Source: an uncultured Bacteroidota bacterium (GTDB lineage Bacteria; Bacteroidota; Bacteroidia; Bacteroidales; P3). From it: a stretch of DNA of 64,000 bases. The stretch spans positions 62,001 to 126,000 of the forward strand of contig CADAQX010000009.1 of the NCBI GenBank assembly GCA_902790215.1, given 5' to 3'. Shown here one piece after another: positions 36,452-48,780 of the stretch (position 1 is its first letter; each line of letters opens with the position of its first letter). The notes below the pieces were generated by a model. That model saw nothing but the letters and a program-made list of their open reading frames with translations, was not told where the DNA came from and ran no database searches. Made by a program: the position numbers and the translations under genes.

Positions 36452-36469
36452 TTGGTGCCCGGAACAGGA
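36452..36469 (-). repeat. tRNA-Leu 3' end fragment (left att-like copy)
   Basis: TTGGTGCCCGGAACAGGA is identical to the last bases of tRNA-Leu(CAG) plus one flanking T. The match stops at the next base, where the T-arm should continue, so no tRNA can form here. Confidence 0.8.
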
Positions 36470-36920
36470 ACGCCCCAGGCACCTCTACTTATTAGTAACT
36501 GTTTGTGGTTGTTATCATTGTTGCTTTTGACGGTTCAAAACCGAACAATAAAACTGAATAATTTCTCAAAAAGGTGGCCAATCCTGCTCCGTATAAGGAA
36601 GCCATCAGTCCATGCTGTATAAAAGTACCTGACCCCTTGATTCCCTGTCTCCCTTCTATGTGGGTTCTATGTGCCTTCTTTGAAATCATCATAACTGCAA
36701 TAAAATTAGCACTTTATCTATTCCAAACAGAAGCCACTGATAATCAGCATCCTAATATTAGAATCACCCATCAGCCCCACTTCGCCCATTCGCCCAATTA
36801 AACCCAACGTCCCGTGTGTTGCCGTGCCACAGCAACACAAAAGCCACCGTGCCCAAGCTATCAGCCTGACGCTTCGTTCTGTGGGCGGCCTTTATGGCCG
36901 TCAACAATCCTCCTATCCCA

Positions 36921-37187
36921 CTAAAAGCCAACTTGGCAATTCAAATATGCGGTGTAAATATTTTCTGTCTCATTGGTCTTTAACAATATCATTTTGAAAT
37001 TGGGAGCGATCTTTACATATTTGCCAATTTTGAATTGGGCACCAAGGATTGCAGATGATTCATCTTTCGCACTATTCTTGCTATTTCGGGAATACAAGTC
37101 ATCGAATCGCACAAACAAAGATATGTATTTGGGCAGGTTTACCATGGCGAACAGAGAATTCAAATCTGCCGAACTTAAAAGACTTCC
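36921..37187 (-). pseudogene. C-terminal fragment of the phosphate-island porin
   Basis: About 80 codons directly behind the pstB stop match the end of the porin at 40775-41755: both have AMVNLPK, ISLFVRFDDLYSR and AILGAQFKIGKYVKIAPNF in the same order. The homology begins within ADLNSLFAM, right after pstB, with no start codon or signal peptide. It therefore looks like a duplicated 3' end, placed where pst operons often carry phoU. It may still be transcribed with the operon. Confidence 0.8.
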
Positions 37188-37955
37188 TTATCCCATCTTT
37201 CCCGTCAGATAAGCCTTTGTTCGTTCGTCAATAGGGTTTGTAAACATTGTTTCAGTATCTCCGTACTCGACAAGTTCCCCCAAATACATAAACATCGATT
37301 TTGACGATATGCGCTTTGCCTGCCCCATATTGTGGGTTACTATCAAGATGGTAACCTCCTTTTGAAGATCGAGCAAAAGTTCCTCGATATGTTTCGTTGC
37401 GATAGGGTCAAGAGCCGATGTGGGTTCGTCCATCAATAGCACATCGGGCTTCATTGCCAAGGCACGGGCAATGCATAAGCGTTGCTGCTGACCGCCAGAA
37501 AGGAATGTACCCTTCTTGTTCAGTACGTCCTTCACTTCATCCCAGAGGGCTACGCTTTTTAAACAGCGTTCAACTGTTGTGTCTTTTTCTGCCTTTGAAA
37601 GTTTAATACCATTCAAGGAAAATCCCGACAAAACATTATCATAGATGCTCATCGTGGGGAATGGTGCAGGACGCTGAAAGACCATACCCACACGACGGCG
37701 CACATCGATTGGTTCCATCAAAAGAATATTTTCGCCATTGAGCAAAATCTCGCCGTCAACACGGATGTTCTGATAGAGATTGTGCATAAGGTTCACAGCG
37801 CGTAGGAGGGTGGACTTTCCACAGCCGGAAGGTCCCATAATAGCAGTGATGGTATTTCGTTCGATGGCTGCCGATACATACTTCACAGCCATTGTTTGCT
37901 TGGTATATGATACGCAAGTCTTCTTAAATTCAAGTATGGGTATTACTGATTCCAT
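37188..37955 (-). CDS. pstB: Phosphate ABC transporter ATP-binding protein
   Basis: A 255-residue ABC ATPase. Walker A is GPSGCGKST (41-49), the signature LSGGQQQRLCIARALA, Walker B LLMDEPTSALD, and the H-loop VTHNMGQAKRIS is typical of PstB. It energises phosphate import through PstA/PstC. Its start overlaps the end of pstA by 13 bases, which indicates translational coupling. Unlike many pst operons there is no phoU behind it; a porin fragment follows at once. Confidence 0.95.
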   Translation of the reverse strand: MESVIPILEFKKTCVSYTKQTMAVKYVSAAIERNTITAIMGPSGCGKSTLLRAVNLMHNLYQNIRVDGEILLNGENILLMEPIDVRRRVGMVFQRPAPFPTMSIYDNVLSGFSLNGIKLSKAEKDTTVERCLKSVALWDEVKDVLNKKGTFLSGGQQQRLCIARALAMKPDVLLMDEPTSALDPIATKHIEELLLDLQKEVTILIVTHNMGQAKRISSKSMFMYLGELVEYGDTETMFTNPIDERTKAYLTGKMG

Positions 37956-38809
37956 TTCTTTGCAAGATATTTAGCGGTAAGATTTAATGCAAGTACAAAT
38001 AGCAAGAGGAAGAGCGATGCACCCCAAATCAACTCTTGCAAGTTAGGGTCGTTGAAAAATTCCCAAATAAGCAGAGGTACTGCCGAGATGGGCTTATCAA
38101 CAGAGAAGCGGATAAGCGAACAACCAAGAGCTGTGAACATTAGCGGTGCAGTCTCTCCAATTACTCGCGAAACGGCAAGTAGTATGCCTGTGAAGATACC
38201 ACCGAACGCAGCAGGCAGCTGCACTCGCATCATCACTCGTGCCTTGTTGCCTCCGAGAGCCAATCCCACCTCCTTGAGTGATGCTGGAAGAATCTTCAGG
38301 GTCTCTTCTGTTGAACGAACGATAAGCGGAACCATCATGATGCAGAGTGCCACGCTGCCTGCGATTGCCGAATAGCCTTTCATCGGAACAACCACCCATA
38401 TATAGGTTATGATACCGATAATTACCGATGGCGTACCTTGCAGAAGGTCAGTCAGATAACTAACAAATAGAGCAAATCGATTCTTACTATTCTCTGCCAA
38501 ACATGCTCCACAAAGAACACCCAACGGAACGGCAACAATTACAGCCATGCCAAGCATAATCATTGTCCCGACTATACCATTTGCGATGCCTCCAGGTATG
38601 GGTTCGCCCGCTTCGAAAGCCTTCATTGCCTTGTACGCTGTTGGTGTCGGCTCTGTAAAGAACGCCCAAGAGAGTTGATGGTAGCCACGCAGCAATACTT
38701 CTCCCAAAATGGCAAGCAACGGAACGGCAGTAAGTGCTGCCAACAGGCAAATGCCCCAAAGCATCAACTTGTCTTTTGCCAAACGGCGTTTTATTTTCGA
38801 TCTATCCAT
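37943..38809 (-). CDS. pstA: Phosphate ABC transporter permease PstA
   Basis: A 288-residue inner-membrane permease with six predicted helices and the EAA-like loop (ILPASLKEVGLALGGNKARV) that contacts PstB. A long periplasmic loop (HQLSWAFFTEPTPTAYKAM) is typical of PstA. It overlaps pstB by 13 bases and starts 2 bases after the pstC stop. Codon use in pstA and pstB looks less GC-rich at third positions than in Pit or phoR of the same island (visual impression only). Confidence 0.94.
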   Translation of the reverse strand: MDRSKIKRRLAKDKLMLWGICLLAALTAVPLLAILGEVLLRGYHQLSWAFFTEPTPTAYKAMKAFEAGEPIPGGIANGIVGTMIMLGMAVIVAVPLGVLCGACLAENSKNRFALFVSYLTDLLQGTPSVIIGIITYIWVVVPMKGYSAIAGSVALCIMMVPLIVRSTEETLKILPASLKEVGLALGGNKARVMMRVQLPAAFGGIFTGILLAVSRVIGETAPLMFTALGCSLIRFSVDKPISAVPLLIWEFFNDPNLQELIWGASLFLLLFVLALNLTAKYLAKKWNQ

Positions 38810-47338: not shown

Positions 47339-48550
47339 ATGGACGCATTATTTAGAAAGAGTGACAGGCTGTTGGCCAATACCGGCATGGACATCATCCG
47401 GGACAAGATGGATGAGATCCATTGGAGTTCTCAGCTCATTACAATCATAGGTGCCAAAGGCGTGGGCAAATCCACCCTCATCAAACAGCATCTGAAGCAG
47501 AACTACAAGCCGGGCGACCATCGTGTGCTATACTGTTCTGCCGACACGGTGGATATGTCGATACGCACACTGGTGGAATTGGCCGAGGAGTTCTCGATTC
47601 GCGGAGGTGAACTGCTGGCAATTGACGAGATTCACAAATACAAACCAGGAACATCGGATTGGAGCCGTGAGATAAAAGAGATCTACGAACTGTTCCCAGA
47701 ATTGAAACTGATTGTGAGTGGTTCCTCCCTTCTGCGTATGCGTGAAGGCGATGCCGACTTGTCGCGCCGAGCCGTGAAATACACGATGCCGGGTCTTTCG
47801 TTCCGCGAGGCGTTGCGTTTCTACCATGGACTGACGTTCCCTAAATGGACTTTGGATGACATTCTGGCCCATCCCTACGATTTGTGGCAGTCGGTCTCCG
47901 CCAAATGCAAGCCTGTGGCTCTTTTCAAAGAGTATCTCACAAAAGGATATTATCCGTTCCTTCTTGAGGGAGAGGGCGATTACTACACGAAGATTGAGCA
48001 AGTGGTTGGTTATATCGTCGAGACAGAGTTGCCTCAGATATGCAGGGTCGATGTATCCAATGTCAGAAAGCTCCAGGCTTTGATCGCTATGATTTGCAGC
48101 GAGACTCCATTTGAACTAAACGCCAACCGCATTGCAGCGGCCCTTGAAATCGGCCGCGACACCGTGGTGGAGTACCTCAAGTATCTGGGCGATGCCAAGG
48201 TGTTGAACCTGCTTTATTCCGACAAGAAGAAGATTGGCAAGTTGTCAAAACCCGACAAGGTGTATCTTGAGAATCCAAACATAATGTATGCCCTTGCACC
48301 TACCAAAGTGGAAGTGGGCACTCTTCGCGAGACCTTTGCCGTAGGATGTCTTTCCGAGTCGCACAATGTCGAGTACGGGAAAACTCAGGGCGACTTTAAG
48401 GTTGACGCAAAATATACTTTTGAAATAGGAGGTCGCAGCAAGGACTTCTCGCAGATTGCAGGTGTGGAAGACTCTTATGTCTTCGCCGACGACTGGGATA
48501 TGCCCGACGGAGCGAAGCTGCCCCTATGGATGTTGGGATTTTTGTATTGA
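47339..48550 (+). CDS. AAA ATPase with DUF4143 domain
   Basis: A 403-residue ATPase of the AAA_14/DUF4143 type. Walker A is GAKGVGKST (38-46), Walker B LLAIDEIHK with Asp96 and Glu97, and a sensor-1-like LIVSGSS follows. The C-terminal half contains the winged-helix and DUF4143 parts (YLKYLGDAKVLNLLY, NIMYAL, FEIGGRSKDF). These proteins are frequent in Bacteroidota genomes, often many paralogues next to repeats, and their role is not known. Here it is the only gene between two tRNA-Leu 3' repeats. Confidence 0.85.
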   Translation: MDALFRKSDRLLANTGMDIIRDKMDEIHWSSQLITIIGAKGVGKSTLIKQHLKQNYKPGDHRVLYCSADTVDMSIRTLVELAEEFSIRGGELLAIDEIHKYKPGTSDWSREIKEIYELFPELKLIVSGSSLLRMREGDADLSRRAVKYTMPGLSFREALRFYHGLTFPKWTLDDILAHPYDLWQSVSAKCKPVALFKEYLTKGYYPFLLEGEGDYYTKIEQVVGYIVETELPQICRVDVSNVRKLQALIAMICSETPFELNANRIAAALEIGRDTVVEYLKYLGDAKVLNLLYSDKKKIGKLSKPDKVYLENPNIMYALAPTKVEVGTLRETFAVGCLSESHNVEYGKTQGDFKVDAKYTFEIGGRSKDFSQIAGVEDSYVFADDWDMPDGAKLPLWMLGFLY

Positions 48551-48663
48551 AAAATGGTGGAGAAAGGACGAAAATGAGGTTTTGGCAAAGTAGAGCAAAC
48601 TATAAAATTGTGAAAACTGGTACATATTAACGAACTCAATATAAAAGGAGACGTTGCATGAAT

Positions 48664-48696
48664 AAAAAAAGAAGACCTTTTTGGTCTTCTATTTTT
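48664..48696. terminator. Terminator of tRNA-Leu (and of the ATPase gene)
   Basis: AAAAAAAGAAGACC (48664-48677) pairs with 48683-48696 except for one base. The stem begins right at the CCA end of the tRNA on the minus strand and gives T-runs in both directions. Confidence 0.8.
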
Positions 48697-48780
48697 GGTG
48701 CCCGGAACAGGACTTGAACCTGCACTCCTTTCGGAACACGCACCTGAAACGTGCGCGTCTACCAATTCCGCCACCCGGGC
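48696..48780 (-). tRNA. tRNA-Leu (anticodon CAG)
   Basis: An 85-base class II tRNA with encoded CCA. The acceptor stem GCCCGGG pairs with TCCGGGC with one G-U pair, the anticodon stem CACGT/GCGTG surrounds the loop TTCAGGT with anticodon CAG, a long variable arm and a T-arm GGTTCAAGTCC follow. Its 3' end is copied at 36452 and 46934. Confidence 0.95.

Follow-up and report, generated by a model that had tools for sequence, protein, structure and literature searches.

A phosphate gene block in an array of cassettes at tRNA-Leu(CAG) in an uncultured member of the Bacteroidales

The subject of this analysis is an array of inserts behind a tRNA gene, and the block of phosphate genes that lies within it, in a stretch of 64,000 nucleotides (the window) from an uncultured Bacteroidota bacterium (GenBank assembly GCA_902790215.1, contig CADAQX010000009.1, positions 62,001 to 126,000). 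The gene for tRNA-Leu(CAG), the attachment site, occupies 48696..48780 (minus strand; ARAGORN), and that for tRNA-Leu(GAG) occupies 48847..48931 (minus strand; ARAGORN). An 18-base sequence, TTGGTGCCCGGAACAGGA – the final 16 bases of tRNA-Leu(CAG) plus one base on each side – occurs exactly three times in the window, all on one strand: at the intact tRNA (48695-48712) and, displaced, at 46934-46951 and 36452-36469 (both listed on the plus strand by the 18-mer scan). With up to three mismatches there are four matches in the window against 0.05 expected; in the whole genome (2,977,099 bases) the three exact copies are the only ones, and a reversed-pattern control gave none. A preliminary description of this DNA had reported three 18-base copies in one orientation and identified them as the 3' end of tRNA-Leu(CAG): scan and tRNA call agree with it. 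It had also taken such copies as marks of integrative elements, and they do look like attachment-site duplications: the locus as a whole combines displaced, same-orientation 3'-end copies (hereafter cores) with an intact tRNA, the pattern of a tRNA-targeted integrative island.

The repeated unit is larger than the tRNA end. Behind the tRNA stands a native-type terminator hairpin (48664..48694, minus strand; -12.0 kcal/mol, z -4.3), a second copy of which (46903..46933, minus strand; -15.6 kcal/mol, z -5.2) accompanies the core at 46934, and over 52 nt, hairpin included, 46903-46954 and 48664-48715 are alike at 87%. The hairpin next to the copy at 36452 differs from this native type. Repeat comparison also revealed an inverted partial tRNA 3' end (46881..46898, plus strand) that faces the core at 46934; a similar inverted tRNA-Leu 3' end is found behind the terminator in G006 and G082 (L074 351; L107 3700), where G-numbers denote genomes of the window's genus (G000 being the window genome) and L-numbers denote fetched loci.

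An array-free version of the site is present in G118, the sole genome in which it is complete on one contig: behind the tRNA come its own terminator and some 3.1 kb of DNA, after which stands the gliding-ddlA-GSCFA-dnaE flank that is common to the window. No pst or pho match lies at this site (the gene-locus comparison kept phoR, phoB and pstB matches of at least 45% identity and covered loci with the chosen genes), and an empty site, such as the preliminary description proposed to look for, does exist. Linkage of flank to tRNA is found in both G118 and G119, and G082 has, in the same flank, a core copy about 0.7 kb away from DUF5692. Two further arrangements of leucine tRNAs were seen. In G003 (L079 4667-16518) the tRNA-Leu(GAG)-tRNA-Leu(CAG) pair occurs twice, 11.6 kb apart, with methyltransferase-like and other large open reading frames (ORFs) between; in G027 (L067 about 10327-10448) two leucine tRNAs look fused, the 5' part resembling tRNA-Leu(GAG) and the 3' part tRNA-Leu(CAG), and ARAGORN reports no tRNA in this stretch.

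The 3' ends of tRNA-Leu(CAG) were read across the genus (57 ends from 56 genomes), and a conserved end, T, was called at a score of 60 or more (best shuffle 30), with one core mismatch allowed and duplicate rows merged. T lies directly behind the tRNA in 17 of the 57 ends; 39 are without it (two of these score 56 and 58) and one is cut short. Among 29 further core copies, some of them inverted, eight have T behind them, and chance probably accounts for at least one, L114 1851. When 28 hand-picked T left ends were folded, 27 gave a terminator-like stem, mostly of two-stem shape, the sequence of which varies between species with both sides of the stem changed. Behind the T hairpin are arm repeats (TTGGYCAYM-N-TTTGGYCAYM), and the same pair stands before the core at the right end. 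The arm pair has 55 matches in 1.317 Mb of fetched loci (reversed motif: 0), of which 48 are within 200 bp of a same-strand core, mostly at +82..87 (left side) or -119..126 (right). The exact right end plus core was found in 15 copies, in 12 of 120 genus genomes (control: 0). tRNA-Leu(CAG) is an integration hotspot.

What the relatives hold at this site was examined in 19 hand-picked core-bounded intervals (1,254 to 10,465 bp) from 14 genomes, the window's two included. Alignment A2 comprises 42 of the 51 ORFs of the intervals (eight phosphate ORFs and one of 1,758 residues were omitted), and alignment A1 comprises 13 rows chosen from 80 fetched loci. Differing cassettes occupy one site with tRNA 3'-end copies between them, which is the arrangement of an additive island. 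Among the genes carried are ABC systems (an uptake transporter and an exporter pair), an RND efflux set and an ArsP-type permease accompanied by DsbD-like and other genes, and the products also include ORF6N proteins, Fic proteins and AAA_14/DUF4143 ATPases; family scans of the cassette ORFs were read from the best 25 of 47, 60 and 57 families. Among the PADLOC matches listed for the 42 ORFs, PDC-S01 accounts for five, PDC-S05 for two and SoFic for two, and a cassette of G082 (L107 706-2785) carries an AAA_21 and RloB-like gene pair matching AbiLi and AbiLii; these hits are model names, and the defence role is a predicted one. Related species thus appear to fill the same tRNA site with other transport genes and, likely, phage-defence genes.

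The window's own array has at least three members: an ATPase cassette (46952-48694), a damaged member that holds the phosphate block (36470-46933) and the remnant of a left end (36403-36452). The first, of 1,743 bp, adjoins the tRNA (46952..48694) and is bounded by core copies, as the preliminary description had said of a separate small insertion. Its sole gene (47339..48550, plus strand) encodes an AAA_14 ATPase with a weak DUF4143 match and matches the PADLOC candidate model PDC-S01; its far end is common to G082 (93%), G030 (83%) and G086 (73%), and a motif scan places an arm-repeat pair, TTGGTCATAGTTTGGTCATA, at its right end (47056..47075, minus strand). It is one of several single-gene cassettes with no T left end (window 46952-48694, L121 6829-8389, L282 11985-13703); the two terminators that flank each of them are alike within one genome and different between genomes.

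The second member has neither an intact arm pair nor a T-type left end between 36470 and 46933. End comparison identifies at 36470..36581 (minus strand) the right end of a T-type element with one arm remaining; right end and core together (36452-36581) are 98% identical to the end of an island with other cargo in G073, a genome whose DnaE is 71% identical. On the tRNA-ward side of the interval stand the native-type terminator, the inverted tRNA fragment and what is left of a serine-recombinase region (46441..46835, minus strand; by comparison with G031), in which 46668-46835 encodes the last 56 residues of the enzyme, 77% identical to an intact relative of 213 residues in G031. The end of that intact gene (L106 590-1231) and the DNA downstream of it match the window remnant at 81% DNA identity. 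The third member is a T-like left-end hairpin of a further element (36403..36452, minus strand), which scores 43 against a shuffle maximum of 30 and folds into two stems (-20.6 kcal/mol, z -4.8). A dispersed repeat whose ends are inverted (CCCAAATCGGTCATTAG...) has a copy at about 36070-36403: the query stretch has 51 matches in the genome, itself included, most of which cover its inverted-repeat part, and many copies resemble short inverted-repeat elements with TTAA- or ATAA-like borders. This stretch was considered as part of the element end and rejected, being a separate repeat scattered through the genome; matches inside window 36050-36420 were left out of the DNA comparison with relatives.

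The phosphate block itself, delimited against G031 and others, extends over 36645..46402 and consists of a porin fragment, pstBACS, a porin, Pit-PhoU, PhoB and PhoR. On the minus strand are the 3' fragment of another porin (36921..37163; by ORF comparison 96% identical to a G031 porin), pstB (37188..37955; TIGR00972, just below the cut-off at 336.9 vs 343.2 bits), pstA (37943..38809; TIGR00974), pstC (38812..39702; TIGR02138), pstS (39686..40747; TIGR00975) and a full-length porin-like protein (40775..41776; 96-98% identical to the pst-linked porin of G005, G088 and G094). On the plus strand are a Pit transporter (PHO4) with a C-terminal PhoU-like domain (41918..44170), phoB (44228..44920; NF053854) and phoR (44927..46342; NF053855). 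The NCBIfam models of pstA, pstC, pstS, phoB and phoR are matched above their cut-offs. The porin fragment is absent from the preliminary description, as are the serine-recombinase remnant, the inverted tRNA end and the dispersed repeat. The full-length porin-like protein has no Pfam, NCBIfam or PDB sequence match, and 'porin' is for this reason only a name carried over from the preliminary description. Sequence searches with the C-terminal 243 residues of the Pit protein likewise gave no Pfam or NCBIfam family and no PDB chain; their predicted structure (mean predicted local distance difference test score 86.5) has PhoU or PhoU-like proteins as all of its top 15 PDB matches (template-modelling score to the query 0.44-0.68, probability 0.98-1.00; best E 0.003, none reaching E 0.001). 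Since PhoU structures lead these matches, the name 'Pit-PhoU fusion' holds. The gene content first proposed (porin-pstSCAB, Pit-PhoU, phoBR) is accordingly matched by the Pst, Pho and PHO4 families and, for the PhoU half, by the predicted fold, and from these families the block likely serves phosphate uptake of high and of low affinity, regulated by its own PhoBR. Composition, which the preliminary description proposed to compute, shifts across the block: GC content at third codon positions is 0.46-0.56 in the pst genes and 0.61-0.71 in the porin, Pit and Pho genes, against 0.71-0.79 in flanking genes outside the array, with lipo1 (0.56) an exception.

If the block had moved between species, then its genes should be more alike than the genes around them. 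Carriers were sought in 36 other genomes of the genus by DNA search, and family searches of 119 genomes added G088, G094, G105 and G131. Above the family cut-offs, PstS is found in 9 of 119 genus genomes and Pit in 10 of 119. Pit-PhoU is 95% identical to the window's in G007, G031 and G094, 96% in G088, 98% in G027, 98% in G105 (residues 27-750) and 97% in G131 (first 254 residues); PhoB is 95-99.6% identical in six genomes with a whole PhoB; PhoR ranges from 84% (G027, G031) up to 99% (G088), with 97% in G072, where the contig starts within phoB; and PstS is 98-99% identical in G005 (part), G088 and G094. Background genes, compared for G005, G007, G027, G031, G072 and G105, are less alike: DnaE is 68% identical in G007 (part), 71% in G031, 72% in G005, 80% in G072 and 81% in G027, and a protein on the tRNA side is 44% identical in G007, 46% in G105, 50% in G031, 51% in G005, 75% in G072 and 84% in G027. 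G007, G031, G105 and G005 show this difference strongly, G072 and G027 less so. Because Pit-PhoU and PhoB are more alike than DnaE or the tRNA-side protein, the identities show that the phosphate block was acquired horizontally within the genus. Other copies in the genus are much more diverged (Pit 47% in G028; PstS 62% in G111, 58% in G108 and 73% in G135).

Analysis of the organization of the block in its carriers points to two sources. G031 and G027 have porin, Pit-PhoU and PhoBR with no pst between, and G131 is alike to the end of its contig; the window and G094 have, in addition, pstSCAB and a second porin, and next to pstB a 3' fragment remains of the first porin. G088 follows the window's gene order up to the end of its contig in pstB. 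A single continuous match to G094, at 95%, spans window 36834-46402 and the junction is the same in both, so the pst splice predates the split of the window and G094 copies. The block is a mosaic of two phosphate modules: an older porin/Pit-PhoU/PhoBR module had received pstSCAB and a second porin before these two copies parted.

No cassette described above carries an obvious enzyme for its own movement. PF00589 matches in 16 genomes, 10 of the 14 array genomes among them, include none inside the intervals, and for the remaining four array genomes 15 of 18 ORFs, Pfam-scanned singly, gave no integrase match. In the window island there is no PF00589 match (on the G000 contig C9) and no match to the integrase described next, in two scans that could overlook a very divergent enzyme; the serine-recombinase remnant is all that was found. 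A tyrosine integrase does stand directly after tRNA-Leu(CAG) and T in G031 and G064. A tblastn search of the 80 fetched loci with the G031 enzyme gave matches in these two genomes only, and relatives are present in 5 of 119 genus genomes (G031, G064, G088, G093 and, as a 62-residue match, G094). In G088 and G094 the relative is next to tRNA-Leu(CAA); that of G093 adjoins a core-like copy on a contig lacking the tRNA. Integrase relatives or arm repeats adjoin tRNA-Leu(CAA) at L295 8756-10360 and L296 9807-9977 (G088/G094), and the family may thus use a second leucine tRNA. The neighbour of the integrase, a helix-turn-helix (HTH) protein of 108 residues, matches PHROG DNA-binding and excisionase families. 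No mobilisation or conjugation gene is named in the G064 element and cassette ORFs among the families listed, several ORFs matching nothing.

Taken together, these data are, we think, probably explained as follows: small integrative cassettes of one family would use the 3' end of tRNA-Leu(CAG) as their attachment site in this genus, the window would hold an array of at least three members of that family, and the phosphate block, which came by horizontal transfer within the genus, would now lie in a damaged one. A T-type cassette consists of a tRNA 3'-end core, a left end (terminator-like hairpin and arms), cargo, a right end (arms) and another core. Its insertion would leave the tRNA intact, set the cassette's terminator behind the tRNA and displace the native terminator outward; tandem arrays would follow, since repeated insertions keep the tRNA whole and push the native terminator out. 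The rare tyrosine integrase and its excisionase-like HTH partner, encoded in other genomes, would most likely move the cassettes in trans.

Several observations weigh against this explanation. The layout of the arrays is plain, whereas their mobility and the recombination by which they would have grown are deduced from it. The window genome has no relative of the element integrase at E 1e-15. The element integrase itself scores near or below the PF00589 cut-off (24.7 bits in G031, or 28.8 with neighbours, against 27.1; under the limit in G064), so that the Pfam scan has a blind spot for divergent enzymes. TTGGTCATAGTTTGGTCATA is the genome's single arm pair at up to one mismatch, and the reversed control also gives one match; cassettes without T, such as the window's small one, fit the two-armed plan incompletely; and because the arm motif was derived from the same ends, its count shows spacing and specificity and is no independent prediction. 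The tRNA is on the array contig in 11 of 14 genomes, and the array contigs of G028, G030 and G082 are without it. Finally, the viral contigs searched gave neither the element integrase nor a right-end/core/left-end junction, and they therefore lend no support to a phage carrier.

The most serious competitor holds that the arrays are immobile relics in which each insert lost its own integrase by deletion and nothing acts in trans. The absence of a related integrase from the window genome, its presence in only 5 of 119 genus genomes, and the damaged state of both the end at 36403-36452 and the phosphate island are what such decay would leave. Three observations nevertheless make it unlikely in our judgement, while leaving it real weight: several integrase-free intervals (in G028, G137 and G085, for example) keep both ends at the standard spacing, G000 and G073 share a right end at 98% identity on different cargo, and related AlbA_2-type cassette genes precede the right end in G028 and G061.

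A second alternative is that of the preliminary description, in which 36470-46933 is one mobile element that carries the phosphate genes and was site-specifically inserted at the tRNA. Core copies flank it on both sides, its right end is shared with the G073 island (at a DnaE identity of 71%), transporters are carried by other cassettes of the site, and its composition is shifted. Were the block such an element, its ends should be intact on both sides and should accompany it elsewhere: both expectations failed. The interval in the window retains one arm and no T-type left end. The eight other Pit/Pho carriers (G007, G027, G031, G072, G088, G094, G105 and G131) show neither a core copy nor an arm pair in the DNA read around each block (6-20 kb), several of these contigs ending in or near it. 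Five of them (G027, G031, G088, G094 and G105) share DNA past 46402 that the window is without, which makes it probable that the window copy was cut at this position; the sharp edge at 46402, considered as the end of a mobile unit, was dropped on the same ground. The proposal that the module might be found at another tRNA also yielded no such case: the block contigs of G088 and G094 have no tRNA-Leu(CAG) core or arm pair, the tRNA-Leu(CAA) core not having been searched as such. With the mosaic structure added, we regard insertion of the block as a tRNA element in its own right as distinctly improbable. Of the preliminary view, horizontal acquisition of the phosphate genes is supported, on the identity contrast; that the module is itself the tRNA element is not supported.

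Because relatives hold the block elsewhere without a tRNA mark in the DNA read, the tRNA elements are its present neighbours and not its proven carrier. Most simply, recombination of another kind would have brought the block into a cassette already in decay; the likeliest route would be recombination, illegitimate or homologous, that had its breakpoints near 36582-36644 and 46403-46440; capture by an element before its decay is a conceivable second course of events. The tRNA islands are real and the transfer is real, and the earlier interpretation is to that extent partly supported.

Descent of a strongly conserved block from the ancestor of the genus, with loss in most species, would account for its presence in several distant species, but in the genomes compared DnaE has diverged further than PhoR and Pit-PhoU, other Pit-PhoU and PstS copies in the genus are far more diverged, and the neighbourhoods differ: such descent is very hard to credit. 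Equally implausible is that faulty assembly or binning joined foreign DNA at repeats (the draft genome is in 40 contigs and the joins fall at repeated 18-mers), given that the copies are exact over 18 bp only (two of them alike over 52 nt at 87%), that similar arrays are found on contigs of 13 other genomes and that flank and tRNA are linked in G118 and G119.

If the favoured explanation is right, an uncultured Bacteroidales lineage has gained phosphate uptake together with its regulators in what is readable as one interspecies transfer and, PstS and Pit being rare in the genus, the acquisition could alter the phosphate biology of a species. There would also be a standard loading site at which transporters and candidate defence genes are exchanged by elements seemingly without an enzyme of their own. 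With the ends defined, further cargo can be searched for by pattern, and action in trans can be assayed directly. More tentatively, as an idea that we hold to be possible and somewhat doubtful, the whole may amount to a distributed integron-like system: integrase-less cassettes with standard ends would pass between species, moved in trans by one rarely carried integrase family, and would load transporters and phage-defence genes at one site, which could draw in a whole phosphate block.

Comparison with known systems places these cassettes among several kinds of element. Cis-mobilizable and integrative mobilizable elements have attachment sites, depend on the enzymes of another element and accrete in tandem at one site; cis-mobilizable elements are defined by two attachment sites and no recombination genes, and the T-type cassettes of G028, G085 and G137 have this constitution. 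As to integrative mobilizable elements, the ORFs scanned here gave no gene for conjugation or mobilisation among the families listed. NBU1 also has a leucine tRNA as its site.

The remaining likenesses and differences concern the published passages compared. Islands at ssrA in Dehalococcoides lie in tandem behind one RNA gene, are marked by 3'-end repeats, have varying cargo and carry an integration module in 16 of 31 cases (PMC3146451). The present arrays share the tandem inserts, the 3'-end repeats at an RNA gene and the variable cargo; unlike those islands, which target tmRNA with a serine recombinase, they have tRNA-Leu(CAG), a tyrosine recombinase, and arms with a terminator hairpin at each left end. 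Additive flexible genomic islands gain and lose cassettes by site-directed recombination: one in the Methylophilaceae is marked by repeats of the final 20 bp of a tRNA-Lys gene, and metal-resistance cargo is found in Alteromonas (PMC10872708, PMC5217437). They belong to other phyla, and the passages compared describe no end structure like T or the right end found here. Tycheposons resemble the present system in having cargo at a tRNA gene, a tyrosine recombinase and nutrient uptake genes, and differ in being large and having their own recombinase (via PMC10872708). In HIMB59, phosphate islands with pstSCAB and PhoU, and in some versions PhoBR, are exchanged horizontally as a block; in the passages compared, no insertion-sequence or tRNA marks are reported for them, and homologous recombination at one fixed position is inferred (PMC10734472). 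Here, by contrast, the neighbourhood of the block varies between genomes, and the window has it within a tRNA array. Open-access literature contained, among the matches listed, no tRNA-Leu cassette array or phosphate island for this lineage. As far as the literature was searched, what is new in relation to the known systems is the host lineage, the tRNA, the defined ends and the rare integrase that matches them.

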